DNA of 64,000 nucleotides. Origin: Streptomyces antimycoticus (GTDB lineage: Bacteria > Actinomycetota > Actinomycetes > Streptomycetales > Streptomycetaceae). Positions 7,118 through 62,790 of this stretch are shown here, piece after piece (within the stretch, counting starts at the first letter, position 1; every line of letters begins with the position of its first letter). The stretch lies in contig NZ_BJHV01000001.1 of NCBI RefSeq assembly GCF_005405925.1, positions 2,976,001 through 3,040,000 of the forward strand. The letters are read 5' to 3'. Below the pieces are notes generated by a model. The model saw only the letters and a list, made by a program, of their open reading frames with translations. It made no database searches and was not told where the DNA came from. The position numbers and the translations under genes are program-made.

Positions 7118-7371
7118 GCTCTCGGGCGGTCGTTCTCGGGGCGGTCGCTCTCGGGCTGGTCGCTCTCGGGGCGGTCGTTCTCGGGGCAGCCGCTCTTGGG
7201 ACAGCCGCTCTCGGAGTGGTCGTTCTCGGGGCAGCCGCTCTTGGGACAGCCGCTCTCGGAGTGGTCGCTCTCGGGGCAGCCGCTCTTGGGACAGCCGCTC
7301 TCGGGACAGCCGCTCTCGGAGTGGTCGCTCTTGGGACAGCCGCTCTCAGGACAGCCGCTCTCGGGGCGGTC
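7118..7371 (-). repeat. 15-bp tandem repeat array (about 17 units) starting on the whiA stop codon
   Basis: Read on the minus strand, the array begins with the GA of the whiA TGA stop. It runs for about 17 units with the pattern (GACCGCCC or GGCTGTCC) then CGAGAGC, the last unit being 14 bases. Variants alternate in a higher-order order (GACCAC, GGCTGT and GGCTGC types), so groups of units were duplicated together. Both strands stay open in several frames only because 15 is a multiple of three; there is no ribosome-binding site for such an ORF. Treated as non-coding. Confidence 0.9.
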
Positions 7372-8359
7372 AGCCGACCATGCCCTCGGCCATCTCCTCG
7401 GTGAGGCTGGACTCGGTGCCGGGGATGCCCAGGTCCTGGGCCCGCTTGTCGGCCATGGCCAGCAGCCGGCGGATACGGCCCGCGACAGCGTCCTTGGTCA
7501 GCGGCGGGTCGGCGAGGGCGCCCAGCTCCTCCAGGGACGCCTGCTTGTGCTCCATGCGCAGCCGGCCGGCCGCGGCGAGGTGCTCGGGCACCTCGTCGGC
7601 CAGGATCTCCAGGGCGCGCTGCACCCGGGCCCCGGCGGCGACGGCGGCACGGGCCGAGCGGCGCAGATTGGCGTCGTCGAAGTTGGCGAGGCGGTTGGCG
7701 GTCGCCCGCACCTCGCGCCGCATCCGCCGCTCCTCCCAGGCGAGGACCGACTCATGCGCCCCCAGCCGCGTCAACAGCGCGCCGATGGCGTCACCGTCCC
7801 GGACGACCACCCGGTCCACCCCGCGCACCTCGCGCGCCTTGGCGGCGATTTGCAGCCGGCGGGCGGCGCCGACCAGCGCGAGCGCGGCCTCCGGGCCGGG
7901 GCAGGTCACCTCCAGGGAGGACGAGCGGCCGGGCTCGGTGAGCGAGCCATGGGCGAGGAAGGCCCCGCGCCAGGCGGCCTCGGCGTCGCAGGTGGCGCCG
8001 GAGACGACCTGCGGCGGCAGTCCGCGGATCGGCCGGCCGCGGCCGTCGACCAGGCCGGTCTGCCGCGCCAGCTGGTCACCGCCCGCCACCACCCGCACCA
8101 CGTACCTGCTGCCGCGGCGCAGCCCGCCGGGGGCCATCACCACCAGATCCGAGGAGTGGCCGAAGATCTCCAGGATGTCCTTGCGCACCCTGCGGGCCGC
8201 GATCCCGGTGTCCAGCTCCGCCTCGATCACGATGCGCCCGCTGACCAGGTGCAGCCCGCCCGCGAACCGCAGGATCGCCGAGACCTCCGCTTTCCGGCAG
8301 CAGGTCCGGGTGACGGGGAGCCGGGAGATTTCGTCCTTCACCGCTGCCGTCATCGCCAT
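7370..8359 (-). CDS. whiA: Sporulation regulator WhiA
   Basis: WhiA is a DNA-binding protein that works with WhiB to switch aerial hyphae to sporulation septation in Streptomyces. The 329-residue product starts [14 protein letters not shown] and has the N-terminal homing-endonuclease-like (LAGLIDADG-derived) domain, for example [18 protein letters not shown] and [12 protein letters not shown]. The C-terminal helix-turn-helix is in [23 protein letters not shown] 8359 has GGAAGGAT about 7 bases upstream; the second Met at 8353 would give an ATGA overlap with the yvcK stop. It is the last gene of an overlapping four-gene operon. Its stop codon is the first element of a 15-bp tandem array. Confidence 0.96.
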
Positions 8360-9369
8360 GGGCCGATCCTTCCATGCATCCGAAAAATACGGTCGTACGC
8401 GGCCGCCAGAAGCTCCGGGTCGTGCTTCGGGGCACCGTCGGTCGCGGCCACCGGCGCCAGCTCGACCGTGCCGCCCAGCCGCTTGGCCGCGTCGCACAGA
8501 CTGCTCTGGTCGGGGACGGCGGCCTCGTCGGCCAGCACCACGTCGAAGGCGAGTTTAGGGGCGTGTCGGGCCAAAACCTCCAAATGACGCTGCGGAGAGA
8601 ACCCATCGGTTTCTCCCGGCTGAGGGGCGAGGTTCAGTGACAGCACCCGCCGGGCCTTGGTCTCGGTGAGGGCCTGGAGCAGATCGGGGACCAGCAGATG
8701 CGGGATCACCGAGGAGAACCAGGAGCCGGGCCCCAGCACCACCCAGTCGGCGTCCATGACCGCCTCGACGGCCTCGGGGACGGCCGGCGGATCGTGCGGC
8801 ACGAGATGGACCGACTGCACCTCGCCGCGGGTCAGCGCCACGGTGGCCTGCCCGGCGACGGTGGAGACCTCGTCCGGGCGCGCCGGGTCATGGCCCCGGA
8901 CATACGCCTGGAGCTCCAGGGGGACGGCCGACATGGGCAGCACCCGGCCATGGGCGCCCAGCAGCTTGCCGACCAGGTCGAGTGCCTTCACATGGTCGCC
9001 CAGCTGTTCCCACAGGGCGACGATCAGCACATTGCCGACCGCGTGGCCATGCAGCTCGCCCTCGCTGATGAAGCGGTGCTGGATGACCCGCGCCCAGGTC
9101 TGGCCCCAGTCGTCGTCGCCGCAGAGCGCGGCCAGGGCCTTGCGCAGATCGCCGGGCGGCAGCACGCCCAGCTCGTCGCGGAGCCGTCCGCTGGAGCCTC
9201 CGTCGTCGGCCACGGTGACGACGGCGGTGAGGTCGCCGGTGATCCGACGCAGTGCGGCGAGCGACGCGGACAGGCCCATGCCGCCGCCGAGTGCGACGAC
9301 CTTGGGCTGCGCGCTCCGGCTGGCCCGTGTTCCGACCAGCCGTCGCAGCCGCTTGGTACGAATGGTCAC
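8350..9369 (-). CDS. yvcK: YvcK-family gluconeogenesis factor (uridine diphosphate-sugar binding protein)
   Basis: A 339-residue YvcK/CofD-like protein. In Bacillus, YvcK is needed for growth on gluconeogenic carbon sources and binds UDP-GlcNAc; actinobacterial homologues affect cell-wall synthesis. The nucleotide-binding signature [15 protein letters not shown] (about residues 23-37) and [13 protein letters not shown] are intact, followed by [12 protein letters not shown] and [14 protein letters not shown]. It overlaps rapZ upstream and whiA downstream by a few bases, so translation is coupled. This rapZ-yvcK-whiA order is conserved in Gram-positive bacteria. Confidence 0.94.
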
Positions 9370-10301
9370 TCGCGCCCCATGTCCCGGTGGACGATGACGG
9401 TCTCCACTCCCTCGGCGGCCAGCCGCGGGGCGAGCCGCTCGGACATCGCCACACTGCGGTGCTTGCCGCCGGTGCAGCCGATGGCGATGGTCACATAGCG
9501 CTTGCCCTCGCGGCGGTAGCCCGCGGCGATGAGCTGGAGCAGCTCCGCGTAGCGGTCGAGGAACTCCTTGGCGCCGGGCTGGTTGAAGACATAGCTGGAG
9601 ACCTCCTCGTTGAGCCCGGTGAAGGGGCGCAGCTCGGGGACCCAGTGCGGATTGGGCAGGAAGCGGCAGTCCACCACCAGATCGGCGTCGACCGGCAGCC
9701 CGTACTTGTAGCCGAACGACATCACGGTGGCCCGCAGCTCGGGCTCCTCCTCGCCCGCGAACTGGGCGTCCATCTTGGCGCGCAGCTCATGCACGTTGAG
9801 GCTGGAGGTGTCGATCACCAGGTCGGCGTCGCCGCGCAGCTCGCGCAGCAGATCGCGCTCGGCTGCGATGCCGTCCACGATCCGGCCGTCGCCCTGGAGC
9901 GGGTGCGGGCGGCGCACCGACTCGAAGCGGCGCACCAGGGCCTCGTCGGACGCCTCCAGGAACAGCACGCGCCGCTTGACGCTCTTGGCGGCGAGATCGG
10001 CGAGGGACTCGCGGAGGTTGTCGAAGAAGCGGCGGCCGCGGACGTCCACCACCACGGCGATCCGGGCCACATTGCCCTGGGAGCGGGCGCCCAGGTCGAC
10101 CATGGTGGGGATCAGCGCGGGCGGCAGGTTGTCCACGACGAACCAGCCGAGGTCCTCCAGACATTTGGCGGCGGTGCTGCGGCCCGCGCCCGACATTCCA
10201 GAGATGATCACCAGCTCGGGGATGGCCGCCGCCTCGGCGGGCTCGCCCGACGTGCCCGTATTCACCTGCGCTCCGTCTCCATGGTTCTCGTGTTCGGTCA
10301 T
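9366..10301 (-). CDS. rapZ: RNase adapter protein RapZ / YvcJ-type nucleotide-binding protein
   Basis: RapZ in E. coli targets GlmZ small RNA to RNase E; the Gram-positive YvcJ branch hydrolyses nucleotides and its RNA role is less certain. The 311-residue product has a P-loop GMSGAGRS at residues 35-42, with Arg where Walker A normally has Lys. It also has [15 protein letters not shown] and a conserved C-terminal domain with [19 protein letters not shown]. The first 27 residues are a variable extension. Start and stop each overlap the neighbouring genes by 4 bases. Confidence 0.93.
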
Positions 10302-12502: not shown

Positions 12503-12613
12503 GGTCACCACCCTACTTGCGGGAAGTGACACATCCGGGCCCTCCGGAGGTGGTCGGCTGAGGTCCAGTGGATTTGGGGATTCCGCGGCCGCTCGGGCGC
12601 GCGCCGGGCGCCC

Positions 12614-12735
12614 GCTGAGGCGCCGGGCCCGCCCGCCCGCTGAGGCGCCGGGCCCGCCCAGGCGGTCCGGCTTCGCTCAGGCATCAGGGCCCGCCCAGGC
12701 GTCCCGCTCCGCTCAGGCGTCGGGGCCCGCCACGA
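12614..12735 (-). repeat. Degenerate repeats derived from the 3' end of the Rieske gene
   Basis: On the plus strand a motif close to GCTCAGGCGTCGGGGCCCGCC occurs at 12711 (inside the gene end, containing the complement of its TGA stop) and again at 12675. Two further copies with GCTGAGGCGCCGGGCCCGCCC lie at 12639 and 12614. Spacing is irregular (25-36 bases). Copies lie downstream of the gene in its own direction. Confidence 0.7.
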
Positions 12736-13138
12736 GCCGTCCGCCCTTGGCGGTGACCGGGATCGACGGCAGCGGCTTCTCCGCGGGCCCCTGGAGGACC
12801 TTGCCGGTGCGGGCGTCGAACTGGCTGCCGTGGCAGGGGCAGTTGATCTTGCCGTCCTCGACGCTGTCGACAACGCATCCGGCGTGGGTGCACACCGCGC
12901 TGAACGCCGTGAACTCGCCCTTGGCGGGCTGGGCGACCACCACCCGCTGCTCGCGGTAGATCTTGGCGCCGCCGACCGGGACGGCACCGGCCGAGCCGAG
13001 CTCGACGGGGGCGGTGGGCGTCGAGGGCGTTTTCTGGCCCGTACCGTCCGGGGAGCAGGCCGCCGCCCCGAGCCCGGCGGCTCCGGCCAGCGCGGCACAG
13101 CACAGCACGGTTCGGCGGGAGGCGGGCTGGCTGGACAT
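12713..13138 (-). CDS. Rieske [2Fe-2S] domain lipoprotein
   Basis: A 141-residue exported iron-sulfur protein. The N-terminus has a twin-arginine-type signal ([13 protein letters not shown]) and a lipobox-like LGAAAC, so it is probably a Tat-exported lipoprotein on the outer face of the membrane. Residues about 80-125 carry the Rieske ligands CTHAGC and CPCHGSQF, with the conserved [13 protein letters not shown] after them. This is a stand-alone Rieske ferredoxin type, not the cytochrome bc1 subunit QcrA, which is longer. Its redox partner is unknown. ATG 13138 was chosen for the signal peptide; a longer frame to 13234 lacks one. Divergent from the LacI gene. Confidence 0.87.
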
Positions 13139-13215
13139 ATACGGCTCCTGGAGGTGTGAAGGCCCTCCGACCATACCGACACAGATCCCTCCGCTCGCCG
13201 CCGCCTCCCGGGGAG

Positions 13216-15486: not shown

Positions 15487-18400
15487 CTACTTAGCGGCCG
15501 TCCGCCTGGACGCGGCCGTGGACTTGGCCGCCGCCTTCTTGGCCACGGTCTTCTTCGCCGCGGTCTTCTTGGCCGCCGCGCTCTTGGCGGCGGCCTTCTT
15601 GGCGGGCGCCTTCTTGGCGGCCGCGCCGCCATTGCGCGCGGCGGGCACCGTCGCGTCGCTCACCCAGTCGCCCAGCATGTCGCGCAGGAACTTCCCGGTG
15701 TGGCTGGCCGGGACCGAGGCCACCTCCTCCGGGGTGCCCTCGGCGATTACCAGACCGCCGCCGCTGCCGCCCTCGGGGCCCATGTCCACGACCCAGTCGG
15801 CCGTCTTGATCACATCGAGGTTGTGCTCGATGACGATCACGGTGTTGCCCTTGTCGACCAGACCGGAGAGCACGCTGATCAGCTTGCTGATGTCCTCGAA
15901 GTGCAGACCGGTGGTCGGCTCGTCCAGGACGTACACCGTGCGGCCGGTGGAGCGCTTCTGCAGCTCGCTCGCCAGCTTGACGCGCTGGGCCTCACCGCCG
16001 GACAGGGTCGGCGCGGGCTGCCCGAGCCGGACATAGCCCAGCCCGACCTCGTTGAGCGTGCGCAGATGGCGGGCGATGGTGGGCACCGCCTCGAAGAAGT
16101 CCAGGGCCTCCTCGATGGGCATGTCCAGCACCTCGGCGATGGACTTGCCCTTGTAGTGCACCTCCAGGGTCTCCCGGTTGTAGCGCGCGCCGTGGCAGAC
16201 CTCGCACGGCACATACACATCCGGCAGGAAGTTCATCTCGATCTTGATGGTGCCGTCACCGGAGCAGTTCTCGCAGCGGCCGCCCTTGACGTTGAAGGAG
16301 AACCGCCCGGGCTGGTACCCGCGGACCTTGGCCTCCATCGTCTCCGCGAACAGCTTGCGCACATGGTCGAAGACGCCGGTGTACGTCGCCGGGTTGGACC
16401 GCGGGGTGCGGCCGATGGGCGACTGGTCGACATGGACCACCTTGTCGACCAGATCGTCGCCGGCGACCCGGGTGTGCCGCCCCGGCACCGCCCGCGCGCC
16501 GTTCAGCTCGCGGGCCAGATGGGTGTAGAGGATGTCGTTGACCAGCGTGGACTTACCCGATCCGGAGACACCGGTGACGGCGGTGAGCACCCCCAGCGGG
16601 AAGGACACATCGATGTCCTGGAGGTTGTTCTCCCGGGCGCCGTGGACCGTCAGATGCCGCTTGGGGTCCACGGCCCGACGCGCCGACGGCAGCGGGATGG
16701 CCCTCTTGCCGGACAGATAGTGACCGGTCACCGAATCCTCGTTGACCAGCAGCTCGCTCAGCGGTCCGCTGTGCACCACCTTGCCGCCGTGCTCGCCCGC
16801 GCCCGGGCCGATGTCCACCACCCAGTCCGAGGTCTTGATGGTGTCCTCGTCGTGCTCCACGACGATCAGGGTGTTACCGAGGTCGCGCAGCCGCACCAGC
16901 GTCTCGATCAGCCGGTGGTTGTCGCGCTGGTGCAGGCCGATGGACGGCTCGTCCAGCACATACAGCACGCCGACCAGACCGGAGCCGATCTGGGTGGCCA
17001 GCCGGATGCGCTGGGCCTCGCCGCCGGAGAGGGTGCCCGCGGCGCGGTTGAGCGAGAGGTAGTCCAGGCCGACGTCGACCAGGAACCTCAGCCGCTCGTT
17101 GACCTCCTTGAGGACCCGCTCGGCGATGGTCTTCTCGCGCGGGCTCAGCTCCATGGCGCGCAGGAACTCGGCGCATTCGCTGATCGACATCGCCGAGACA
17201 TCCGCGATGGACTTGTCCTGCACGGTGACCGCGAGAACGATCGGCTTGAGGCGGGTGCCCTCACACGTGGGGCAGGGCACCTCGCGCATATAGCCCTCGA
17301 ACCGCTCCCGGCTGGCGTCGCTCTCCGCCTCCGAGTGGCGCCGCTTCACATAGGGCACCGCGCCCTCGAAGGCCGTGGTGTACGCCCGCTGGCGGCCGTA
17401 GCGATTGCGGTAGCGGACCTCGATCTGGGTCCGGTGGCCGTTGAGGAGCGCCTTCTTGGCACGCTGCGGCAGCCCGGCCCAGGGGATGTCCGTACGGAAG
17501 CCGAGCGCATCGGCGAGCGCGCCGACCAGCCGCCCGAAGTAGTCCTTGGTGTGGCCGTGGGACCAGGGGTGGATGGCGCCCTCGTCGAGCGACTTCTCCT
17601 CGTCCGGGATGATCAGCTCGGGGTCGACCTCCATCCGGGTGCCGATGCCGGTGCAGTCCGGGCAGGCGCCGAAGGGCGAGTTGAAGGAGAAGGTGCGCGG
17701 CTCCAGCTCCTCGAAGGACAGGTCGTCGTACGGGCAGTACAGATGCTCGGAGAACATCCGCTCCCGCTGCGGGTCGTCCTCGTCGAGGTCGACGAAGTCG
17801 AGGATCACCATGCCGCCGGAGAGGCCCAGCGCGGTCTCCACCGAGTCGGTCAGCCGGCGCTTGGCGCTCTCCTTGACGGTGAGGCGGTCGATGACCACCT
17901 CGATGGTGTGCTTCTCCTGCTTCTTCAGCTTCGGCGGGTCGGACAGCTGGATCGTGGCGCCGTCCACCCGGGCGCGGCTGTAGCCCTTGGTCTGGAGATC
18001 GGAGAAGAGGTCGACGAACTCCCCCTTGCGCTCGCGCACCAGCGGGGAGAGCACCTGGAAGCGGCTGCCCTCCGGGAGCTCCAGCACCCGGTCCACGATC
18101 GCCTGCGGCGACTGGCGGGCGATCGGACGGCCGCACTCGGGGCAGTGCGGCTTGCCGATGCGGGCGAACAGCAGCCGGAGGTAGTCATAGACCTCGGTGA
18201 TGGTGCCGACCGTCGAGCGCGGATTCCGCGAGGTCGATTTCTGGTCGATCGACACCGCGGGGGACAGACCCTCGATGAAGTCCACATCGGGCTTGTCCAT
18301 CTGCCCCAGGAACTGGCGGGCGTAGGAGGAGAGCGACTCGACGTAGCGGCGCTGCCCCTCGGCGAAGATCGTGTCGAACGCGAGGGACGACTTGCCCGAC

Positions 18401-19470: not shown

Positions 19471-20127
19471 ATGACCTACAGCGGAGTAGTGACGGTCGGT
19501 GGACCGGCGGACGTGCACGAACTGCCCGATCTGATGATCTCGAAGGTCGCGGTCGGCCCCATGAACAACAACGCGTACCTGCTGCGCTGCCGGGCCACCG
19601 ACGAGCAGCTCCTGATCGACGCCGCCGCCGAGCCGCACACCCTGCTCTCCCTGATCGGCGAGAGCGGCATCGCCTCCGTCGTCACCACCCACCGCCACCA
19701 GGACCACTGGAGCGCGCTGCGCGAGGTGGTGGAGGCCACCGGCGCCCGCACCTACGCGGGCCAGTACGACGCCGAGGGCATCCCGGTGCCGACCGATGTG
19801 CCGGTCGCGGACGGCGACACGGTGCGGGTCGGCCGGGTCGAGCTGACCGCACGCCATCTGGTCGGCCACACTCCCGGCAGCATCGCCCTGGTGTACAACG
19901 ACCCGCACGGCCATGCGCATGTGTTCACCGGCGACTGCCTCTTCCCGGGCGGCGTGGGCAACACATGGAAGGACTCCAAGGCGTTCGAGAGCCTGATCAA
20001 CGACGTCGAGACCAAGCTCTTCGACCAGCTTTCGGACGAGACCTGGGTCTATCCCGGCCACGGCGACGACACCACGCTCGGCGCCGAGCGCCCGCACCTC
20101 GGGGAGTGGCGCGAGCGCGGCTGGTAG
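19471..20127 (+). CDS. MBL-fold metallohydrolase (glyoxalase II-like)
   Basis: A 218-residue metallo-beta-lactamase-fold hydrolase with the zinc motif THRHQDHW (His74, His76, Asp78, His79), a further HLVGHTPGSIAL and FTGDCLF, and VYPGHGDDT near the end. This is the layout of glyoxalase II-like thioester hydrolases. Because it follows an MDMPI-type gene by only 4 bases, it may act on a mycothiol conjugate or thioester; that is an inference. Its TAG stop lies inside a two-copy 28-bp repeat. Confidence 0.88.
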   Translation: MTYSGVVTVGGPADVHELPDLMISKVAVGPMNNNAYLLRCRATDEQLLIDAAAEPHTLLSLIGESGIASVVTTHRHQDHWSALREVVEATGARTYAGQYDAEGIPVPTDVPVADGDTVRVGRVELTARHLVGHTPGSIALVYNDPHGHAHVFTGDCLFPGGVGNTWKDSKAFESLINDVETKLFDQLSDETWVYPGHGDDTTLGAERPHLGEWRERGW

Positions 20128-20162
20128 CAGCGCCGGAGGTACGCGCGGCTCGTAGCGGCGCA
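20115..20162 (+). repeat. Two-copy 28-bp repeat spanning the MBL gene stop codon
   Basis: GCGCGGCTGGTAGCAGCGC at 20115 recurs as GCGCGGCTCGTAGCGGCGC at 20143 (two differences, period 28). The TAG in the first copy is the gene's stop; the second TAG is one frame over. Confidence 0.7.
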
Positions 20163-20234
20163 CACACCGCCCCAGAGCGCCGCGCACCTCCGTACGCCCC
20201 GTGACCCCCGGCGGGCCATGGCGGTTGTCGCGTC

Positions 20235-32851: not shown

Positions 32852-33331
32852 TCAGCTCCAGCCGTACCGCTGCCGCAGCCGCATCACGACCAGGTCGAAG
32901 CGCGGCCGGTCGAGTGCGCACGCCTCGCGCCGCATCCCGTCCGGGTGCACCCGCAGCACCCGGTCCAGATCGACCCAGGAGTCCCGCCCGGCCCGGTCCC
33001 AGGGCCCGGAGCCGATCGGCACCCACTCGCGGTCGGCGTCATGCCGCTTGCTCGACAGCTGCACGGCGAGCAGCGTCCCGCCCCGCTCCCGCGCGACCAC
33101 CAGCACCGGCCGGTCCTTGCCGCGGCCGTCGTTCTCCTCGTACGGCACCCATGTCCAGACGATCTCCCCGGGGTCCGGGTCCCCGTCCGGATCGGGTGCG
33201 TACTCCGTCCGTACCCGCCCGACCTGGCGCGGATGAGCCTCGACGGTGGCGGCGGGACCGGTGCTTCCGGGAAGCGCCGCGCCGTCCTCCGTCCCCTGCG
33301 TTCCGTTGAATGGCCTGATCACGCGCGACAC
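32852..33331 (-). CDS. PemK/MazF-type toxin family protein
   Basis: A protein of about 159 residues (GTG 33331; a second GTG at 33322 gives 156). The C-terminal 100 residues match the PemK/MazF ribonuclease fold: EIVWTWVPYEENDGRGKDRP, VLVVARERGGTLLAVQLSSK, SWVDLDRVLRVHPDGMRREA and a final LVVMRLRQRYGW. MazF family members cleave mRNA. No antitoxin gene is adjacent; the upstream DNA leads into the divergent FUSC gene. The chromosomal Streptomyces form is widespread without a partner and may not act as a classical toxin. No clear ribosome site, so the start is uncertain. Confidence 0.75.
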   Translation of the reverse strand: MSRVIRPFNGTQGTEDGAALPGSTGPAATVEAHPRQVGRVRTEYAPDPDGDPDPGEIVWTWVPYEENDGRGKDRPVLVVARERGGTLLAVQLSSKRHDADREWVPIGSGPWDRAGRDSWVDLDRVLRVHPDGMRREACALDRPRFDLVVMRLRQRYGWS

Positions 33332-34667: not shown

Positions 34668-35876
34668 TCAGCTGAGCGGGTAGCGGTCGCGCGGGAAGAC
34701 CACGTCGTCGTAGGGCTCGTACAGCTCCACGGAGCGGTGGAACTCGGAGGCGAAGTCGTCGGCGAGTTCTGCGATCGTGCCGCGGCCCTCGGTCAGGGCC
34801 AGCCAGGACGGGGGAAGGCGAAGGTCGCCGTGGTGGGCTCCGAGGAGGTTGCCGCAGATCGAGCCGGTCGAGTCGCTGTCGCCCGAGTGGTTGACGGAGA
34901 GCAGAAGGGCCGCCTGGACGGGGGTGCGCGGGGGCGCCGGATCATAGCTGATCTTGCCGCCGGGGCCGTAGAGGATCTGCTGGGCGGGGGTACGGGCCAG
35001 GGCGCTGTAGACCGCGATGGCCAGCGCCTCCTCGGCGACCCAGCCGCCGCCGAGCGATTCGGCCTTCTCGGCGGTCGGATCGCCCTCGGCCGCAAGGTCG
35101 ACCGCCTTACGGAGGGCGGCGGTGGTCTCCTCGTGGCGGGGATAGCGGGCGAGGAGTTCCAGGGCGCGCAGGGCCGCGCCTTCGAGGGACTCGCCGTCGA
35201 GCAGGCACGCGATCATGGCGGCCAGGGCGCCGGCCGCGTAGGAGCCGGTCGGATGGCCATGGGTGATCGTGGCACAGCGGGCGGCGAGTTCGAAGCAATC
35301 GCGGGGGTCGAGCCCGGTGAGGCCGAACGGCGCCGAGCGCATCACGGTGCCGCAGCCCTTGGAGCCGGGGTTCACCGGGCCGGGGGTGCCGTCCAGGGGC
35401 GCCCGAGGGGCGGGGACATGCTGCGCGGTGAGGCCGGAGAGGCAGGCGTTGCCGGGGGCGCGGCGGGCGTACAGCCAGGGCTGGGTGCGCAGCCAGCCGG
35501 AGCGGACCAGGTCGCCGGTGCCCTCGGCGGGCGGCGGCCCGGGGTGGTTCTGGGTGTCCAGCCAGCGCAGATAGGCATGGCGGACGACGGCGGTCTCGGA
35601 CCCTTCGATGCCCTTGGACGAGGATCTGGCGTGGGCCCGTATCAGGCCCTCCGCCGTGAAGAGCGTCATCTGGGTGTCATCGGTGACCCGGCCCACGACT
35701 CCGCTGCCGTCCGGGACGAGGGTGGTGATGCCCGTGCCGCCATAGGTCTCGCGGATCGACCGCAGGGAGAGGAACTCGATCGGATTGCCGAGGGCGTCCC
35801 CGATCGCCCCGCCCAGCAGGCAACCGCGGATACGGGCCCGCTTGGCGGCCGATTCGTCCCATGACTGGCGGATCAC
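34668..35876 (-). CDS. ADP-ribosylglycohydrolase family protein
   Basis: A 402-residue DraG/ARH-fold hydrolase that would remove ADP-ribose from proteins, nucleic acids or small molecules. The two dinuclear-metal motifs are present: VTDDTQM (residues 64-70) and NHSGDSDSTGSICGNLLGAHHG near the C-terminus, plus RGCLLGGAIGDALGNPIEF at the start and GCGTVMRSAPFGL. Length is within the family range. It lies convergent to the FUSC gene (39 bases). Its target is not predictable. Start ATG 35876 begins the conserved N-terminus. Confidence 0.9.
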   Translation of the reverse strand: MIRQSWDESAAKRARIRGCLLGGAIGDALGNPIEFLSLRSIRETYGGTGITTLVPDGSGVVGRVTDDTQMTLFTAEGLIRAHARSSSKGIEGSETAVVRHAYLRWLDTQNHPGPPPAEGTGDLVRSGWLRTQPWLYARRAPGNACLSGLTAQHVPAPRAPLDGTPGPVNPGSKGCGTVMRSAPFGLTGLDPRDCFELAARCATITHGHPTGSYAAGALAAMIACLLDGESLEGAALRALELLARYPRHEETTAALRKAVDLAAEGDPTAEKAESLGGGWVAEEALAIAVYSALARTPAQQILYGPGGKISYDPAPPRTPVQAALLLSVNHSGDSDSTGSICGNLLGAHHGDLRLPPSWLALTEGRGTIAELADDFASEFHRSVELYEPYDDVVFPRDRYPLS

Positions 35877-36025
35877 TGGCAGCTCCTCATCGTCCTGGTC
35901 CCATGCCGTCCCCTGTGGATGCTCACGACATGATCTCAGGTATCGGAGGGCGCCCTCCGGCGGTAGATTCGAGGAGGAACGAAGCGGGAGAAAGTAGAAG
36001 AAATCTGTCGAAAACGGGAGATACG

Positions 36026-36337
36026 ATGCCCATGCCGACGCGGCTGATCCGAACGGGTGACGAACCGGTACACGCGCGCAGCCCGCTGCGGATGCGGCTG
36101 GGGCTGGCCACGTGGGGGCTGCTCTGGACGCTCGGCGGCGCGGTGGCCTTCGCGGTCGTGGGCCGACCGGGATGGGCAGCCGCGTGTGGGGTGCTCGCCG
36201 TCGTCACCCTGGTCGATCTGGTCCTGGTGATCCGGCACATCCGGCAGGGGCCGCACTATCAGCCCGGCCCGGATGTGCCGCCGTACGCACCGCTCGGCGA
36301 GCGCAGGCGCGGCCGCGGATGGCGCCGGGCCCCGTAA
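36026..36337 (+). CDS. DUF6343-type small membrane protein
   Basis: A 103-residue protein: a short polar N-terminus with TGDEPVHARSPLRMRLGLA, two membrane helices (about 30-47 and 52-69) and a polar tail ending RRRGRGWRRAP. The EP-x-x-ARSPLRLRL motif followed by two helices is what I know as the actinobacterial DUF6343 family, of unknown function. GGGAG lies 6 bases before the ATG. Stands alone. Confidence 0.75.
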   Translation: MPMPTRLIRTGDEPVHARSPLRMRLGLATWGLLWTLGGAVAFAVVGRPGWAAACGVLAVVTLVDLVLVIRHIRQGPHYQPGPDVPPYAPLGERRRGRGWRRAP

Positions 36338-36486
36338 GGCGTGCACGGCGTGGCCGCCGTAAGGCATGGCCGCCGTAAGGCGTGCACGGCGCTCCGGGGG
36401 TGACGGGATATCGACGGCCGGGAGTCCCGCATTCCGGGAGATACTGGCGAGTACCTGCTGGGTACCTGCCGCGACAGGGGGCCGTC

Positions 36487-36693
36487 ATGGGGGTGCTGGC
36501 GATCGGCATCGCGCTCTGTGCGCTCGGGCTGATGCTCTCCGGAACCGGAGAGCCGTACGAGCGGCGGGAGCCGCGGCCGGGCCGGGAGGCCGATCCGTAC
36601 GACCTCGTCCGGCAGCGCGGCGTGGCGCTGGGGCTCGGCGGGGTGGTGCTGCTGGGCGCGGTGGTCCTCGGCGGATTCGCCCTCTGGCGCTGA
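36487..36693 (+). CDS. Small two-helix membrane protein, unknown
   Basis: A 68-residue protein with helices at about 4-18 (LAIGIALCALGLMLSG) and 46-66 (VALGLGGVVLLGAVVLGGFA) joined by a polar loop rich in Glu/Arg (EPYERREPRPGREADPYD). ATG 36487 has AGGGGG 6 bases upstream; a longer frame from 36382 lacks a ribosome site. I do not recognise a family. Its stop codon is in the first unit of a 49-bp tandem repeat. Confidence 0.65.
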   Translation: MGVLAIGIALCALGLMLSGTGEPYERREPRPGREADPYDLVRQRGVALGLGGVVLLGAVVLGGFALWR

Positions 36694-36878
36694 CCTGGGA
36701 CGGGCCGCCTGGCGCTCACTTGGAGCAAGCCCCTGGCGCTGACCGGAGACGAGCCGCCTGGCGCTCACCTGGAGCAAGCCCCTGGCGCTGACCGGAGACG
36801 AGCCGCCTGGCGCTCACCTGGAGCAAGCCCCTGGCGCTGACCGGAGACGAGCCGCCTGGCGCTGACCGGGGACCGGCC
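36683..36878 (+). repeat. 49-bp tandem repeat (about four units) starting on a stop codon
   Basis: The unit CCTGGCGCTGACCGGAGACG (first 20 bases) repeats at 36732, 36781 and 36830 with period 49; the first, diverged copy includes the last codons CTCTGGCGCTGA of the small membrane gene. Each unit itself consists of two related halves of 25 and 24 bases. The period is one more than a multiple of three, so TGA recurs in all three frames. The remainder to 37019 is GC-rich and holds no visible gene. Confidence 0.9.
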
Positions 36879-37528: not shown

Positions 37529-37592
37529 CGCACGCTCCGCGCCGCGCCCCGGCTCAGCCCCGCACGCTCCGCGCCGCGCCCCCGCTCAGCCC
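37529..37592 (-). repeat. 32-bp tandem duplication spanning the coaE stop codon
   Basis: GGGCTGAGCGGGGGCGCGGC begins at 37592 (minus strand) and recurs at 37560 with one difference in 32 bases. The first TGA is the coaE stop; the second is in another frame. Confidence 0.88.
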
Positions 37593-38194
37593 TCCGCGCC
37601 GGCCGCCCGCGCCACCAGATCCGCCCAGACCTTGGTGACCTGCGGCTCCAACGCCTCGATCGGGCCATTGTTGTCGATCACGACATCGGCGATCGCCAGC
37701 CGGTCGGCGCGGGTGGCCTGCGCCGCCATCCGGGCCCGCGCCTCGGCCTCGGCCATGCCGCGCAGCCGTACCAGCCGGTCGAGCTGGGTCTCGGGCGTGG
37801 CGTCCACGACCATCACCAGGTCGTAGAGCGGGGCCAGCTTGTTCTCGGCCAGGAGCGGGACGTCATGGACCACAACGGCATCGGGGGCGGCCGCCGCCTG
37901 AAGCTCCGCGGAGCGGTCCCGGACCAGCGGGTGGATGATCGCGTTCAGCGCGCTCAGCCGCTCCGGGTCGTTGAAGACGATCGCGCCGAGCCCGGGCCGG
38001 TCCAGATGGCCGTCGGCGGTCAGCACCTCGGGGCCGAATTCGGTGACGACGGCGGTCAGTCCCGGCGTTCCCGGCTCGACCACCTCGCGAGCGATCCGAT
38101 CGGAGTCGATCAGCACTGCTCCCAATGAGGTCAGGATCCGTGAGACCTCGCTCTTGCCCGCGCCGATTCCGCCCGTGAGCCCCAGCTTCAGCAT
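37586..38194 (-). CDS. coaE: Dephospho-CoA kinase
   Basis: Phosphorylates the 3'-hydroxyl of dephospho-CoA, the last step of CoA synthesis. The 202-residue protein has the P-loop [13 protein letters not shown] (residues 5-17), the conserved [13 protein letters not shown] and the lid region with [20 protein letters not shown], then DVVIDNNG near the end. Met 38194 (MLKLGLTGG) was preferred over the upstream Met. In Streptomyces coaE typically lies near rpsA, as here. Its stop codon is tandemly duplicated. Confidence 0.95.
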
Positions 38195-38232
38195 GGGGCC
38201 CACGCTATATGGCGCACCGGCGGGGTCCTCGC

Positions 38233-42738: not shown

Positions 42739-45366
42739 GCGGGATCGGGGCAGAGCCGTTGACCACTCCTGGGGACCCGCGCGCCGAGGCCCTCGACCGC
42801 CTTCCCGTACGCGAGGCCGTGCCGGCGCTGCTGCGCGCGCTCGACGACCGCGGGGTCGCCGTGCTGTGCGGGCCCCCGGGGACCGGTAAGACGACGCTGG
42901 TGCCACTGGTCCTCGCCGGGCTGGTGGGCGGCGGGCCGGTGCGGCGGGTGCTGGTCGCCGAGCCGCGGCGGATCGCGGCACGGGCCGCCGCGCGGCGGAT
43001 GGCGTGGCTGCTGGGCGAGCGGCCGGGCGGGAAGGTCGGCTTCACCGTGCGCGGGGAGCGGCAGGCCGGCCGGGGGACCGTGGTCGAGGTGGTCACCACC
43101 GGCGTGCTGCTTGCAACGGCTGCAACGCGACCAGGAGCTGGCCGGGGTCGACGTGGTCGTTCTCGACGAATGCCATGAGCGCCATCTGGACGCGGACACG
43201 GCCGCCGCCTTCCTGCTGGACGTCCGGGCCGTCCTGCGCCCCGACCTCCGGCTGATCGCCGCCTCGGCGACCACGGACGCGGAGGGCTGGGCGCGGCTGC
43301 TCGGCGACGGCGGGATGGACGGCGGGGAAGGGGCGACGGGCGGCGGAGGCGGCCCTGAGGGGCCCGCGCCGGTCGTCTCGGCACCGGGTGTGTCCCATCC
43401 GGTGGAGGTGGTGTGGGCGCCGCCCGAGCGCCCCGTACGGCCGCCGCACGGGATGCGCGTTGACCCCGCCCTGCTGGACCATGTCGCGGCCGTGGTGCGG
43501 CGGGCGCTGCGCGAGCGGGAGGGCGATGTGCTGTGCTTCCTGCCGGGCGTGGGCGAGATCGCCCGGGTGGCCGGGAAGCTGGGCGGGCTCGCCGAGGCGG
43601 AGGTCCTGCAGGTGCACGGGCGGGCGCCGGCCGCCGTACAGGAGGCGGTGCTGGCCGGTGCGGACGGCGGACGGCGGCGGGTGGTGCTGGCCACCTCGCT
43701 CGCCGAGTCGAGCCTGACCGTGCCGGGCGTGAGGATCGTCGTGGACTGCGGGCTGGCGCGTGAGCCCCGGATGGACCACGCACGCGGGCTGAGCGCGCTG
43801 ACGACCGTAAGGGCGTCACGGGCGGCCGCCCGGCAGCGCGCGGGCCGGGCGGGGCGTGAGGCGCCCGGGGTGGTCTACCGCTGCTGGCCGGAGGCGGAGG
43901 ACGCCCGGCTGCCGCGTTTCCCGTCCCCGGAGATCGCCGGCGCGGACCTTACGGCCTTCGCGCTGCAGACGGCGTGCTGGGGCGATCCGGACGCCTCGGG
44001 GCTGGCCCTGCTCGATCCGCCGCCCACCGGGGCGATGACGGCCGCCCGCGAGACGCTGACCGCGATCGGTGCCGTGGACGCCGCCGGACGGGCCACCGAG
44101 CGCGGCACCCGGATGGCCCGCCTCGGCCTCCACCCCCGCCTCGCGCGGGCGCTCATCGACGGCGCGAAGGAGGTCGGCGCACGCCGGGCCGCCGAGGTGG
44201 TGGCCCTGCTGAGCGAGGAGCCCCCGAGGGAGTACGGCGACGACCTCGCCGCCGCCTGGCGCACCGCACGCCACGGCGGTGACCCCTACGCCGCCCGCTG
44301 GCGCCAGGAGGCCCGGCGACTCGAACAGGCCCTCACCGGCACGGGCGACGCGCGGCCCGATGGCGCACCTGGCGCGCAGCGGGCGGCGCGCGGCGATGAC
44401 GCCGTGGCGGGGCTGATGGCCGCGCTGGCGTTCCCGGAGCGGGTGGCCCGACGGCGCGGCGAGCGGGCGTACCTCATGGCCGCCGGGACGGGCGCGGAAC
44501 TGAGCGAGGGCTCGCGGCTGGGCGGGTCGCCGTGGCTCGCGGTGGCCGTCGCGGACCGGCCGGTGACCGCCGCGTCGGCGCGGGTGCGGCTCGCGGCCGT
44601 GACCGACGAGGACACCGCCCGGGCGGCGGCCGCGGCCCTGGCCTCGGAGGGTGCGGAGGTGCGCTGGGCCGACGGGGACGTCGTGGCGCGCCGGGTGGCC
44701 CGGCTCGGCGCGATCGAGCTGGTGTCCCGGCCGCTGGCCAAGCCCGATCCGGAGCTGGTGCGGCAGGCGCTGCTGGAGGGGCTGCGCCGCGAGGGGACGG
44801 GGCTGCTGCGCTGGTCGGCGCAGGCCACGGCGGTCCGGCAGCGGATGGCGTTTCTCCACCGGGAGCTGGGCGGGGCCTGGCCGGATGTCTCCGACGCGGC
44901 GCTGCTGGACCGCGCGGACGACTGGCTCGGCGTGGAGCTGGCGCGGGCCCGCGGGCGGGCCGATCTGGGGCGGGTGGACGCGGGAGGGGCGCTGGCCCGG
45001 CTGATGCCGTGGGCCACGGGCGAGGCCGCGCGGTTCGAGGAGCTGGCTCCGGAGCGGATCGAGGTGCCGAGCGGCTCGCGGGTGCGGGTGGACTACGGCG
45101 CGGACCGGCCCGTGCTGGCGGTGAAGCTGCAGGAGCTGTTCGGCTGGCAGGAGGCGCCCCGGATCGCGGGCGGGCGGGTGCCGCCGCTGGTGCATCTGCT
45201 GTCCCCGGCGGGGCGTCCGGCCGCGGTCACCGCCGATCTGGCGTCGTTCTGGAAGGACGGCTACCGCTCGGTGCGGGCCGAGTTGCGCGGCCGGTACCCC
45301 AAGCATCCGTGGCCGGAGGATCCGTCGACGGTCGAGCCGACCCGGCGGACCAACACCCGCCGCTGA
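42723..45366 (+). pseudogene. hrpB: ATP-dependent RNA helicase HrpB, broken by one apparent frameshift
   Basis: A DEAH-type helicase. The first frame (ATG 42723, or TTG 42759) has Walker A CGPPGTGKTTLVPL and VLVAEPRRIAARAAARR up to VTTGVLLATA. Removing one T from the TT at 43111-43112 joins it to LQRLQRDQELAGVDVVVLDE with the DECH box, LRLIAASATTD, VVLATSLAESSLTVPG, the motif VI region RQRAGRAGREAPG, and the C-terminal HrpB domain. Restored length is about 880 residues, normal for HrpB. As read, the helicase is split between motifs I and II. A sequence error is possible; unlike the other breaks this one is an extra base. The stop TGA is in a 16-bp triple repeat. Confidence 0.88.
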
Positions 45367-45408
45367 GCCCCGCGGCCGCTGAGCCCCGCCGCCGCTGAGT
45401 CCGCCCAG
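45361..45408 (+). repeat. 16-bp triple repeat starting on the hrpB stop codon
   Basis: CGCTGAGCCCCGCGGC occurs at 45361 (including the hrpB TGA), 45377 and, diverged, 45393. With period 16, TGA appears once in each reading frame. Confidence 0.8.
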
Positions 45409-45480
45409 CGCCCGTGACTGAACCCCGCGGCCGCTGAGCCCGCCAACCGCCCGCCCGCTCAACCCACGGCCGACGGGGGC

Positions 45481-45630
45481 CGCTCAGCGGGCCGCGTCAG
45501 ACATCAGCCGACCCCACCGGGCATCAGCGGGCCGCGTCAGACATCAGCCGACCCCACCGGGCATCAGCGGGCCGCGTCGGACATCAGCCGACCCCACCGG
45601 GCATCAGCGGGCCGCGTCGGACATCAGTCG
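45481..45630 (-). repeat. 40-bp tandem repeat (about four units) starting on the Fic-like gene stop codon
   Basis: GCATCAGCGGGCCGCGTCGG recurs at 45521, 45561 and 45601 with period 40; an incomplete copy lies at 45484. On the minus strand the first unit contains the TGA stop of the Fic-like gene (45626-45624), and every unit carries further TGA triplets. Units are 95-100% identical, so the expansion is recent. No spacer variation, so not a CRISPR. Confidence 0.9.
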
Positions 45631-46001
45631 GCCCAGTCGCGCAGCCGACGCGCGGTCTCGCCGAGCCGGAATCCGCTGATCTCCCGTATCTCGCGGACGA
45701 GTTTGACCATGCCGCCCGGCGGCGGCGTGATCGGCTCTCCCGACTCCTCCATGTACATCCGCGCGCAGGCCGCGCCGATCGTGGCGTTGTAGTCGGAGAA
45801 CGGCTCGAGGATCAGTGAGGTGTGCAGAAAGGTCGCGGCGCGGGCGGCGGCCTCTTCGTAATAGGGCTCGCCCGAGAATCGCTCATAGCGGTGGCGTTCG
45901 GTCATGCAGTGCAGCGCACCCCAGTCCCGGACCGGGGTGTTCACCGGGGAGACCTCGACCTGGACGTTCAGTACCCAACCGGCGTCGACATACAGGATCA
46001 C
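45624..46001 (-). CDS. Fic/Doc-like toxin component lacking the catalytic motif
   Basis: A 125-residue protein that resembles the short Fic-family toxin components common in Streptomyces: N-terminal MILYVDAGWVLNV, the DWGALHCMTERHRYERFSGE segment, then EEAAARAATFLHTSLILEPF with SDYNATIGAACARMYMEESG. In active Fic/Doc proteins this place has HPFxxGNKRT; here His is Glu and GNKR is replaced, so AMP or phosphate transfer is unlikely. The start overlaps the antitoxin stop by 4 bases. Its 3' end is embedded in a 40-bp tandem array. Confidence 0.62.
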   Translation of the reverse strand: MILYVDAGWVLNVQVEVSPVNTPVRDWGALHCMTERHRYERFSGEPYYEEAAARAATFLHTSLILEPFSDYNATIGAACARMYMEESGEPITPPPGGMVKLVREIREISGFRLGETARRLRDWAD

Positions 46002-46216
46002 CGCATGCCGTGCGGGAACTCCCGCTCGAACTCGGGCTTGTACTCCAGGGCGAACTTCACGGCGCCCTCGACGAAACGCTGCTTCTGACGCCGCCGGACC
46101 ACGTCCTCGGTCAGTATGTCGTGCGCCAGGCGCTTGATCGCGACGCCCTTCTCCCTCGCCTCGGCACGCAGCTCGGCCAGCTCCTGCTCGGTGAACTCAA
46201 TCGTGATGCCAGGCAT
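45998..46216 (-). CDS. Antitoxin-like small protein paired with the Fic-like gene
   Basis: A 72-residue protein beginning MPGITIEFTEQELAELRAEA, a beta-strand then helix-helix pattern (VAIKRLAHDILTEDVVRRRQ) like ribbon-helix-helix antitoxins, with a charged C-terminal part (EYKPEFEREFPHG) that may bind the toxin. The ATGA overlap with the downstream gene is the classical toxin-antitoxin layout. Start Met 46216 was chosen over a Met six residues upstream because it begins the conserved pattern. Confidence 0.62.
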   Translation of the reverse strand: MPGITIEFTEQELAELRAEAREKGVAIKRLAHDILTEDVVRRRQKQRFVEGAVKFALEYKPEFEREFPHGMR

Positions 46217-46324
46217 GGGCGGCATGCTAGCCACGCTCCCGCCCTGATCACTACCGGCTTGGCCACCACGAGCGAATCGCGGGGACGCAGGTTGACGCGG
46301 CGATTGACGCGACGGCCGCGCCGC

Positions 46325-52907: not shown

Positions 52908-52950
52908 GCCCCCGATCCTGCCACGGCCCACCGACAATGCCTCCCGCCCG

Positions 52951-53019
52951 GCCACCGGACCGGACCGCCCCCGGCCACCGGACCGGACCGCCCCCGGCCA
53001 CCGGACCGGACCGGGCACA
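52951..53019. repeat. 23-bp tandem repeat (three units) upstream of polA
   Basis: GCCACCGGACCGGACCGCCC starts at 52951, 52974 and 52997 with period 23 (the last unit diverges at its end). It lies 44 bases upstream of the polA GTG, so in the promoter or leader. More GGACCGGGC-type words continue to about 53095. No gene between 52908 and 53183. Confidence 0.8.
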
Positions 53020-53183
53020 AGACCGGACCGGGCCCCGTACAAGATCGGAGCAGACGGCACTCAAGATCGCGCCCCCGCACAGCCGGACCGGGCCGCCGCC
53101 TCGGCTGTCGTAGGCCCGTGACAGGATTTGACCCACAGGTCCACGCACAGGTCCCGCAACGCTCGAGCCCGAGGGGAACGACG

Positions 53184-55466
<2,283 letters not shown>

Positions 55467-55528
55467 GCGTTTGCTCAGTCACCTGGTAAGAAGGTGGCCA
55501 CCACAAGCAATCGAACGGAGCCGGTCCG

Positions 55529-58348: not shown

Positions 58349-58383
58349 CTCCCGGCGGCGATCCGCACACCCACGAAACGAAT

Positions 58384-58417
58384 CCGCGCGAGGGCGTACA
58401 CCATCGCCCTCGCGCGG
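58384..58417 (+). terminator. 13-bp perfect hairpin between livK and livH
   Basis: CCGCGCGAGGGCG (58384-58396) pairs with 58405-58417 over an 8-base loop. Hairpins in this position usually let the binding protein be made in excess over the membrane and ATPase subunits by partial termination or by protecting the upstream RNA. Confidence 0.75.
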
Positions 58418-58451
58418 CGTCATATCCGACACGCTCATCGGAGGCCCTGCG

Positions 58452-59384: not shown

Positions 59385-59396
59385 GGGAGTGAACCG

Positions 59397-61151: not shown

Positions 61152-62065
61152 CACAGATGACCACCACCACGACCTCCCCCGTGCTCACCGCCACCGGCGT
61201 CACCATGCGCTTCGGCGGACTCACGGCCGTACAGTCCGTCGACCTCAACGTCCACCCCGGCGAGATCGTCGGCCTCATCGGCCCCAACGGCGCGGGCAAG
61301 ACCACCTTCTTCAACTGCCTCACCGGCCTCTACGTCCCCACCGAGGGCAGCGTCGCCTACGAGGGCACCGTCCTGCCGCCCAAACCCCACCTCGTCACCC
61401 AGGCCGGCATCGCCCGCACCTTCCAGAACATCCGGCTCTTCGCCAACATGACGGTCCTCGAAAACGTCCTCGTCGGCCGCCACACCCGCACCAAGGAAGG
61501 CCTGTGGTCGGCCCTCCTGCGCGGCCCCGGCTTCAAACGCGCCGAGGCCGCCTCCAAGGCCCGCGCCATGGAACTCCTGGAGTTCACCGGCCTCGCCGGC
61601 AAGGCCGACCACCTCTCCCGCAACCTCCCCTACGGCGAACAGCGCAAGCTGGAGATCGCACGCGCCCTCGCCAGCGACCCCGGACTGCTGCTCCTCGACG
61701 AGCCCACCGCCGGAATGAACCCCCAGGAGACCCGCGCCACCGAGGAACTGGTCTTCGCCATCCGGGACCTGGGCACCGCCGTACTCGTCATCGAGCACGA
61801 CATGCGCTTCATCTTCAACCTCTGCGACCGGGTCGCCGTGCTCGTCCAGGGCCAGAAGCTCGTCGAGGGCACCTCCGAGGTCGTCCAGAGCGATGAGCGC
61901 GTCATCGCCGCCTACCTCGGCACCCCCTTCGAAGGCGCACCCGGCGCGGAGGAGGCCGCCGAGGTCGAGGCCGCGGAGGCCGGAGCCACCACCGGCGCCA
62001 CGACCGGCGCCCCGCAGGACGAGACCCAGCGGGGCACCACAGCACGTACGGAGGACGGACAGTGA
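61148..62065 (+). CDS. livG: Branched-chain amino acid ABC transporter, ATPase LivG
   Basis: One of two cytoplasmic ATPases. The 305-residue protein has Walker A GPNGAGKT (residues 45-52), LivG-type IARTFQNIRLFANMTVLENV, the signature-region NLPYGEQRKLEIARALASD in place of LSGGQ, and Walker B LLLLDEPTAGMNPQE. The C-terminal 45 residues are an Ala/Glu/Thr-rich extension (EEAAEVEAAEAGATTGATTG). Start ATG 61148 overlaps livM by 4 bases and the stop overlaps livF by 4. Confidence 0.94.
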   Translation: MTQMTTTTTSPVLTATGVTMRFGGLTAVQSVDLNVHPGEIVGLIGPNGAGKTTFFNCLTGLYVPTEGSVAYEGTVLPPKPHLVTQAGIARTFQNIRLFANMTVLENVLVGRHTRTKEGLWSALLRGPGFKRAEAASKARAMELLEFTGLAGKADHLSRNLPYGEQRKLEIARALASDPGLLLLDEPTAGMNPQETRATEELVFAIRDLGTAVLVIEHDMRFIFNLCDRVAVLVQGQKLVEGTSEVVQSDERVIAAYLGTPFEGAPGAEEAAEVEAAEAGATTGATTGAPQDETQRGTTARTEDGQ

Positions 62066-62778
62066 CCGCACTGCTCGAGGTCGAGGACCTGCGGGTCGCC
62101 TACGGCAAGATCGAGGCCGTCAAGGGCATCTCGTTCAGCGTCGAGGCCGGCCAGGTCGTCACCCTCATCGGTACCAACGGCGCGGGCAAGACCACCACGC
62201 TGCGCACCCTGTCCGGCCTGCTCGAACCCCTCGGCGGGGAGATCCGCTTCGACGGCCAACCGCTGAAGGGCGTCCCCGCGCACAAGATCGTCGCCCTGGG
62301 GCTGGCCCACTCGCCCGAGGGCCGGCATATCTTCCCGCGGCTGTCGATCGCCGAGAACCTCCAGCTCGGAGCGTTTCTCCGGAAGGACGCGGACGGCATA
62401 GCCGCCGACATCCGCCACGCGTACGAGCTCTTCCCCATCCTCGGCGAACGCCGCGCCCAGGCGGCCGGCACCCTCTCCGGCGGTGAGCAGCAGATGCTCG
62501 CGATGGGGCGGGCGCTGATGTCCCGCCCCAAGCTGCTGATGCTCGACGAGCCCTCAATGGGCCTCTCGCCGATCATGATGCAGAAGATCATGCACACCAT
62601 CGCCGAGCTCAAGTCCCAGGGCACGACGATCCTGCTGGTCGAACAGAACGCCCAGGCGGCCCTGTCGCTGGCCGATGAGGGCCATGTGATGGAGATCGGC
62701 AAGATCGTGCTGTCGGGGACGGGGGATGCGCTGCTGCACGACGAGTCGGTGCGGAAGGCGTACCTCGGCGAGGACTGA
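62062..62778 (+). CDS. livF: Branched-chain amino acid ABC transporter, ATPase LivF
   Basis: The second ATPase. The 238-residue protein has Walker A GTNGAGKT (37-44), LAHSPEGRHIFPRLSIAENL, the signature LSGGEQQMLAMGRALM, Walker B LLMLDEPSMGLSPIM and the LivF-type EQNAQAALSLADEGHVMEIG. Normal length. Last gene of the operon; its TGA stop is in the first of three 7-bp repeats. Confidence 0.95.
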   Translation: MTALLEVEDLRVAYGKIEAVKGISFSVEAGQVVTLIGTNGAGKTTTLRTLSGLLEPLGGEIRFDGQPLKGVPAHKIVALGLAHSPEGRHIFPRLSIAENLQLGAFLRKDADGIAADIRHAYELFPILGERRAQAAGTLSGGEQQMLAMGRALMSRPKLLMLDEPSMGLSPIMMQKIMHTIAELKSQGTTILLVEQNAQAALSLADEGHVMEIGKIVLSGTGDALLHDESVRKAYLGED

Positions 62779-62790
62779 GGACTGAGGACT
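62770..62790 (+). repeat. 7-bp triple repeat on the livF stop codon
   Basis: GAGGACT three times. The TGA at 62776-62778 is the livF stop; TGA recurs at 62783 and 62790, covering all three frames. Confidence 0.8.

Follow-up and report, generated by a model that had tools for sequence, protein, structure and literature searches.

Tandem repeats that seem to grow out of the ends of genes raise the question of whether stop codons attract them or whether such repeats are simply left alone there. The question is posed by a stretch of 64,000 nucleotides of Streptomyces antimycoticus (hereafter the window), which corresponds to positions 2,976,001-3,040,000 of a 10.9-Mb contig in a genome of 11.17 Mb and 71% GC. 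A whiA comparison, of which the best 80 of 539 matches were used, places S. niphimycinicus and S. iranensis as the nearest named relatives. A preliminary description of the window had listed eight genes, whiA among them, on whose stop codon an array of short tandem repeats was said to begin exactly. It had considered two origins: slippage that is tolerated only outside coding sequence, or a process peculiar to the lineage that works at the 3' ends of genes and might bring the benefit of backup stop codons. The analysis presented here makes it very probable that these arrays are bacterial minisatellites of the ordinary kind, which arose by tandem duplication and were kept where they are harmless, with no special process at the stop codon.

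In the proposed mechanism, tandem duplications, most likely due to replication slippage between short direct repeats, would arise widely, and selection would decide where they are retained. Inside genes, mostly in-frame duplications would survive; around start codons duplications would be removed, and in 3' intergenic DNA they would be tolerated. A segment containing a start, if duplicated, moves or doubles the ribosome-binding site and the start. A duplication spanning a stop should be silent for the protein, and presumably near-neutral, given that the first copy keeps an intact frame and stop; the array then seems to grow from the last codons and the stop and to run downstream. By this reasoning from the genetic code, stops and starts would differ under selection alone.

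Repeats around stop and start codons

Genome statistics rest on a 2.0-Mb sample, made up of 100 pieces of 20 kb each from along the chromosome and exclusive of the window. In the sample and the window together 1655 genes were predicted, and Tandem Repeats Finder (TRF) was run on the same DNA. The genes come from a codon-usage caller built for this analysis, whose coding coverage of the sample is 77%, hence genes were missed; within the window, it missed a DUF6343 gene. On its benchmark, an annotated stretch of Azospirillum rather than of Streptomyces, the caller recovered 40/44 stops and 28/44 exact starts. Intergenic gaps were limited to an upper length of 600 or 800 bp and a lower length of 30, 40 or 100 bp, and other gaps were dropped.

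As a measure independent of TRF, each offset around a stop or start was scored for whether its 12-mer reappears 5-60 bp downstream when one mismatch at most is allowed. For 565 stops, recurrence amounts to 0.41% within coding sequence, starts to increase at about -30 and reaches a plateau near 5.0% in free 3' DNA (6.6% at convergent stops, 4.2% at same-strand stops). The k-mers that span the stop reach 3.2%, which corresponds to a stop/free-3' ratio of 0.63 (95% confidence interval 0.41-0.93). The four k-mer offsets on the stop present values of 2.0-3.7%, while a shuffled-gene control yields 0 there and at most 0.54% at any tested offset. From -3 to -24, the observed values do not exceed the ramp that unit lengths alone would predict. 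Over 777 start codons, recurrence is 0.06%. Given the ratio of 0.63 and the shape of the ramp, the stop codon is the edge of a tolerated zone, with no peak: repeats exceed chance at gene 3' ends as a class, and do not do so at the stop codon in comparison with other 3' intergenic positions.

Arrays with a TRF score of at least 60 are densest in convergent gaps, at 1.48 per kb, followed by 0.66 per kb between same-strand genes, 0.33 between divergent genes and 0.114 within coding DNA. Array edges between -30 and +30 number 1.1-1.9 per kb around stops and 0-0.4 per kb around starts. Placement was tested by reshuffling arrays within their own gaps. In same-strand gaps, 36/82 arrays lie near the stop (21.0 expected) and 7/82 near the start (21.1 expected). 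Convergent gaps, which have stops on both sides, present no extra nearness to stops (39/54 vs. 36.6 expected, p 0.22), and no spike is found 0-10 bp past the stop, with 12 vs. 10.6 expected in convergent gaps and 5 vs. 5.2 in same-strand gaps. The comparison of stops with starts, which the preliminary description had proposed as a check, thus yields an asymmetry, yet one that is unable to separate its two readings, because selection alone produces it. The comparison of stops with other intergenic sites, also proposed there, counts against a stop-linked process.

In the chromosome core, 3' intergenic repeats are found at 15-21% of the stops of each bin (430 stops in all). The arms are less dense, with repeats at 10% of 90 stops on the left and at 0/45 on the right, which may be due to poorer gene calling there.

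Unit length, reading frame and microhomology

At a score of at least 60, the unit length is divisible by three in 166/176 coding arrays vs. 20/55 stop-spanning arrays, where chance predicts 1/3; at a score of at least 90, this holds for 7/29 stop-spanning arrays. For exact duplications the corresponding values are 43/45 in coding DNA and 4/15 across stops. The periods of stop-spanning arrays give no hint that extra stops, in whatever frame, are selected for or against. That six of the eight periods first described are not divisible by three equals the chance proportion (2/3), and the suggested role as backup stop codons is not supported, as stop-spanning periods lack a modulo-3 preference.

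For two-copy exact duplications in intergenic DNA (n=71), the median number of extra matching bases is 4, compared with a chance mean of about 0.8. This excess fits slippage between microhomologies and is moderate evidence for it. Coding duplications have a median of 6 (n=40).

The arrays of the window

Seven of the eight arrays initially claimed are recovered by TRF and gene calls. The remaining one, a 28-bp repeat at the metallo-beta-lactamase-fold (MBL) gene (20108-20163), has 19/28 matching bases, which is the chance level: it ties for second place among the lag-28 matches of the whole window and is unreported by TRF at score 30. The list was also incomplete, as the array at the DUF6343 gene had been overlooked. 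The gene names WhiA, Rieske, CoaE, HrpB, ABC ATPase (livF) and MBL are backed by Pfam matches. Genes, arrays and hairpins are given below in window positions, the arrays without a strand.

7370..8359, minus strand: whiA, stop TGA at 7372-7370 (Pfam WhiA_N, LAGLIDADG_WhiA, HTH_WhiA)
7101..7367: array of 15/45-bp period, which separates the whiA stop from the terminator-like hairpin (TRF)
7052..7083, minus strand: terminator-like hairpin of whiA, kept in 6/6 clade genomes with or without the array (folds of -25.0 to -30.2 kcal/mol)
12713..13138, minus strand: Rieske [2Fe-2S] protein gene (Pfam PF00355)
12632..12731: irregular 18/36-bp array, covering the last 19 bases of the Rieske gene (TRF)
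19513..20127, plus strand: MBL gene (Pfam Lactamase_B)
35861..36337, plus strand: DUF6343 gene (Pfam PF19870)
36306..36392: 41-bp/16-bp array across the TAA stop of the DUF6343 gene, the TAA context recurring (TRF, sequence)
36487..36693, plus strand: small 68-aa gene (gene caller; no Pfam match)
36679..36867: 49-bp array, whose first unit holds the last four codons and the stop of the 68-aa gene (TRF)
37586..38203, minus strand: coaE, dephospho-CoA kinase (Pfam CoaE)
37529..37592: 32-bp x 2 array, covering the last 7 bases of coaE (TRF)
43153..45366, plus strand: hrpB-type helicase gene (Pfam HrpB_C)
45359..45453: 16/39-bp array at the hrpB 3' end (TRF)
45624..46001, minus strand: 125-aa open reading frame (ORF), earlier termed Fic-like, a name unverified and with no Pfam match
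45484..45634: 40-bp array, covering the last 11 bases of the 125-aa ORF (TRF)
62062..62778, plus strand: livF-like ABC ATPase gene (Pfam ABC_tran)
62770..62792: 7-bp x 3.3 array made from the last two codons and TGA of livF (TRF, 100% matches)
62805..62843, plus strand: terminator-like hairpin past the livF array (fold)

The claim that the arrays begin exactly on the stop codon does not hold. In the best TRF rows, proximal edges run from 32 bases before to 12 after the stop end (whiA +2, Rieske -19, DUF6343 -32, 68-aa gene -15, coaE -7, hrpB +12, 125-aa ORF -11, livF -9), with 6/8 window arrays within -7 to -32; a weaker 16-bp row at hrpB begins 8 bases before the stop end. Among 150 repeat-bearing stops of the genome sample, the left edge falls on the first base of the stop codon in one and on any of its three bases in five. 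The original wording is therefore a loose expression for arrays that straddle or closely follow stops. A further 8/150 left edges lie at the first base past the stop; judged by eye, this bump looks partly like chance matches unable to extend into the AT-richer stop codon.

All window arrays are head-to-tail, and the best TRF row has less than 100% matches in 7/8 of them, livF being at 100%. The hrpB and 125-aa ORF arrays sit in one common convergent intergenic gap. The window is richer in strong arrays than the sample (score of at least 90 in 6/38 vs. 35/982 genes, Fisher p 0.003), in a post hoc comparison for a window that was picked for its arrays; at a score of at least 45, the values are 7/38 and 94/982 genes (p 0.07).

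Other features of the window were recorded along with these arrays. A 22-23-bp array (52947-53049) precedes the DNA polymerase I gene (50169-52931, minus strand) within a divergent gap, 15 bp from the predicted start; it is a rare 5'-side case, and 22-24-bp arrays are found in 4/5 sister genomes. A 15/45-bp in-frame repeat (15523-15626) encodes the C-terminal tail of UvrA (1009 aa), where a sub-threshold match to the histone-like HC2 family is found. Just upstream of the 125-aa ORF, a 75-aa ORF (45998-46225) has sub-threshold matches of CopG/ParD antitoxin type, and the pair may be a toxin-antitoxin operon. The window also contains a PemK/MazF-like toxin family gene (32852-33148, Pfam PF02452) and a tRNA-Leu (CAA) gene (63590-63665).

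Variation among sister genomes

The window was compared with five genomes of the same clade (G384, G055, G165, G360 and G096), which are 93-97% identical over it. Across the clade the ends of the coding sequences are conserved, but the arrays immediately beyond the stop have other periods or copy numbers, or are missing. At whiA, an array with a TRF score of at least 50 is present in 4/6 clade genomes, including this one, with differing size: a 45-bp unit has 5.7 copies in this genome and 2.7 in G384, a 15-bp unit has 6.1 copies in G055 and 4.9 in G165, and none is found in G360 and G096. The array thus spans from none to about 258 bp, while the hairpin beyond it is kept in all six genomes. 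The Rieske gap has arrays in it or at its edge in 5/5 sisters, with best periods of 35, 36, 19, 18 and 21, and the coaE end has arrays nearby in 5/5 sisters, with periods of 32, 24, 32, 61/25 and 20.

The 49-bp array of the 68-aa gene is also present in G384, and none of 49 bp is found in the other four sisters, although G360 has a weak 13-bp array at this locus (score 46) and G096 a 7-bp array (score 41). The 7-bp array of livF is near-identical in G165 and undetected by TRF (score of at least 40) in the four other sisters, in which the last two codons and the stop of livF are identical. There is, hence, a rapid turnover of arrays among sisters. An anchored pairwise alignment of the window with each sister gave 6 to 9 clean tandem indels per sister, a number kept low because diverged arrays do not align, and was not used as evidence.

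Other Streptomyces

In the whiA loci of 78 named Streptomyces, drawn from the best 80 of 539 matches, arrays number 1.51 per kb in convergent gaps, 0.42 in same-strand gaps and 0.77 in divergent gaps, and recurrence is 1.8% in 3' DNA, 0.9% at the stop and 0.0% at the start. In S. clavuligerus plasmid pCLA1, the densities are 0.60, 0.68 and 0.69 per kb, respectively, and recurrence over 142 stops is 2.2% in 3' DNA and 0.35% at the stop, with none at the start; as a plasmid with few stops, it is a weak comparator. Azospirillum brasilense p1, likewise a plasmid and a weak comparator, presents 0.78% in 3' DNA and 0.45% at the stop over 110 stops. On the start side of the named loci, 12-mers at +2 (28/672) and +50 (24/672) recur upstream far above neighbouring offsets, probably due to one conserved gene sampled in many loci.

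The clade is possibly denser in arrays than other Streptomyces. In the whiA region, 8/33 stops in the six clade genomes (rows that are not independent) have 3' recurrence, compared with 43/553 in the 78 named Streptomyces, and TRF arrays number 1.20 per kb in the clade vs. 0.58 in the named Streptomyces. Convergent-gap density is equal, however, at 1.51 in the named loci and 1.48 in this genome (not region-matched). Named loci on contigs longer than 5 Mb have 3' repeats at 7/67 stops and stop-spanning repeats at 5/67, those on shorter contigs at 36/486 and 8/486, and this genome at 87/565 and 33/565. For stop-spanning repeats, the 7.5% of the long-contig named assemblies is no lower than the 5.8% of this genome, and draft assemblies may therefore account for part of the apparent clade excess.

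Alternative explanations

Several results weigh against the interpretation of the arrays as duplications kept where harmless. Under full neutrality, stop-spanning repeats should be more frequent than they are, the ratio of 0.63 having an upper bound of 0.93. Observed recurrence exceeds the predicted ramp from -27 to -60 (e.g., 7/565 at -30, where 0.46% is predicted, and 4/565 at -60, where the prediction is 0), part of which may be explained by the coding background of about 0.4%, not included in the prediction. The 5' flanks are not empty, with 1.67% recurrence 50-80 bp upstream of starts. Edges in -30..0 are enriched in same-strand gaps (20/82 vs. 10.1, p <0.0005), and at a score of at least 90 in both convergent (18/27 vs. 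12.9, p 0.0065) and same-strand gaps (8/29 vs. 4.0, p 0.03); part of the same-strand excess is expected, because random placement ignores the promoters that bar the far side of the gap. The median number of extra matching bases is only 1 for stop-spanning two-copy duplications (n=12) and 2 for the intergenic ones of the named loci (n=29), and older multi-copy arrays can inflate extra matching; it is due to these low medians that the evidence for microhomology is no stronger than moderate. Finally, the 3' preference in TRF density is unclear in the comparators (pCLA1 and the named whiA loci).

Some of these results would be accommodated by a mutational process that targets gene 3' ends, e.g., duplication at transcription termination or in head-on collisions within convergent gaps. 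Convergent gaps are the densest in this genome (1.48 per kb), their stops have more free 3' recurrence than same-strand stops (6.6% vs. 4.2%), the core exceeds the arms (15-21% per bin vs. 10% and 0), and strong convergent-gap arrays lean onto the stop, as just described. Yet the stop presents no excess over free 3' DNA, same-strand gaps also hold the promoter of the next gene, which lowers their tolerance, and duplication is not confined to 3' ends, because coding DNA too has in-frame duplications with extra matching bases. Such a process is unlikely, and in the lineage-specific form suggested in the preliminary description it is further weakened by the arrays found near gene ends in other Streptomyces. 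Equally improbable is a clade with a raised tandem-duplication rate, stronger in the core and in convergent gaps and tied to transcription ends, which selection would then shape around stops. The slippage explanation proposed there fared better: arrays crowd 3' ends, avoid starts and are in frame inside genes, and in this genome their density at the stop is not above that of free 3' DNA. Its restriction to non-coding DNA needs correction, as arrays reach into the last codons, which is costless when the unit includes the stop.

A function for the arrays themselves is still less likely. Their action as transcription terminators or RNA-stabilising 3' structures, suggested by their terminator-like positions and by whiA units that look partly palindromic by eye, is very unlikely, since the hairpin z-score of the first 80 nt has a median of -0.90 with arrays (n=68) vs. 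-0.79 without (n=120 sampled; p 0.82), and at whiA a separate hairpin is kept in 6/6 genomes, whereas the array can be missing or up to about 258 bp long. It is more doubtful still that arrays are kept as backup stops in all frames: livF does have a TGA every 7 bases, which covers the three frames, but stop-spanning periods lack modulo-3 bias (20/55 at a score of at least 60, 7/29 at 90 or more), stop-spanning repeats are not in excess, and several of the five sisters lack the whiA, livF and 68-aa gene arrays or have different ones. Nothing was found in favour of a dispersed mobile or copied repeat family, whose probability is close to nil: the 49-bp array sequence, the sole unit searched genome-wide, occurs once in the whole genome, and units at a score of at least 90 differ by eye (51 rows, six of them from the window, with some arrays entered under both of their convergent genes). 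Repeat copy numbers are error-prone in assemblies, but an assembly artefact is just as hard to credit, as the separate sister genomes have arrays at these gene ends that are related without being the same.

For tandem duplication retained where harmless, the steps observed are the location bias in this genome, the ramp into the coding end, the frame bias present only inside genes, the turnover among sisters, and the absence of a hairpin excess.

Comparison with known repeats

The pattern belongs with known bacterial minisatellites or variable-number tandem repeats (VNTR). As in these, the arrays are head-to-tail with mostly imperfect units of 7-60 bp, are enriched in intergenic DNA, vary among close relatives, and have units mostly divisible by three within genes. 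Nothing basic differs; what differs is that the positional profile around stops has here been measured in a Streptomyces.

Units of the mycobacterial interspersed repetitive unit (MIRU) type overlap the stop and start codons of operon neighbours. They are actinobacterial tandem repeats, as are those of the window. Here, however, start codons are uninvolved as a class (0.06% over 777 starts) and the 49-bp unit, the only one searched, is unique in the genome, whereas MIRU-VNTR repeats, which vary between isolates, are scattered over 41 sites (PMC2734929). In the archaeal Borg elements, tandem repeat units are perfect and A-rich, those in ORFs are divisible by three, and the first unit may lie in a gene end (PMC9879509). 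The arrays studied here are alike in that 166/176 coding units are divisible by three and 6/8 window arrays start inside the gene end, and they differ in that 7/8 are imperfect; they are also rich in GC and belong to a bacterial chromosome.

One survey of short tandem repeats, which spans the tree of life, reportedly covers shorter units. It describes the repeats of bacteria and archaea as weakly enriched on both sides of genes, upstream and downstream, and its text has no occurrence of "stop codon" or "Streptomyces" (PMC12699852). A survey of prokaryote satellites gives 38 satellites, or 4.2 per Mb, for Streptomyces coelicolor, and its text has no occurrence of "stop codon" (PMC6749651). Among the literature matches listed, no study of repeats at Streptomyces stop codons was found, which is no proof of absence.

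Implications

These results argue against repeats anchored on stop codons and against backup stops. They are replaced by a simple rule: as a duplication that spans a stop is silent, arrays that emerge from gene ends can be accounted for without a special cause. As fast markers, the arrays could be useful for typing these Streptomyces, and they could provide a natural readout of both the tandem-duplication rate and the constraint on 3' vs. 5' flanks of genes.

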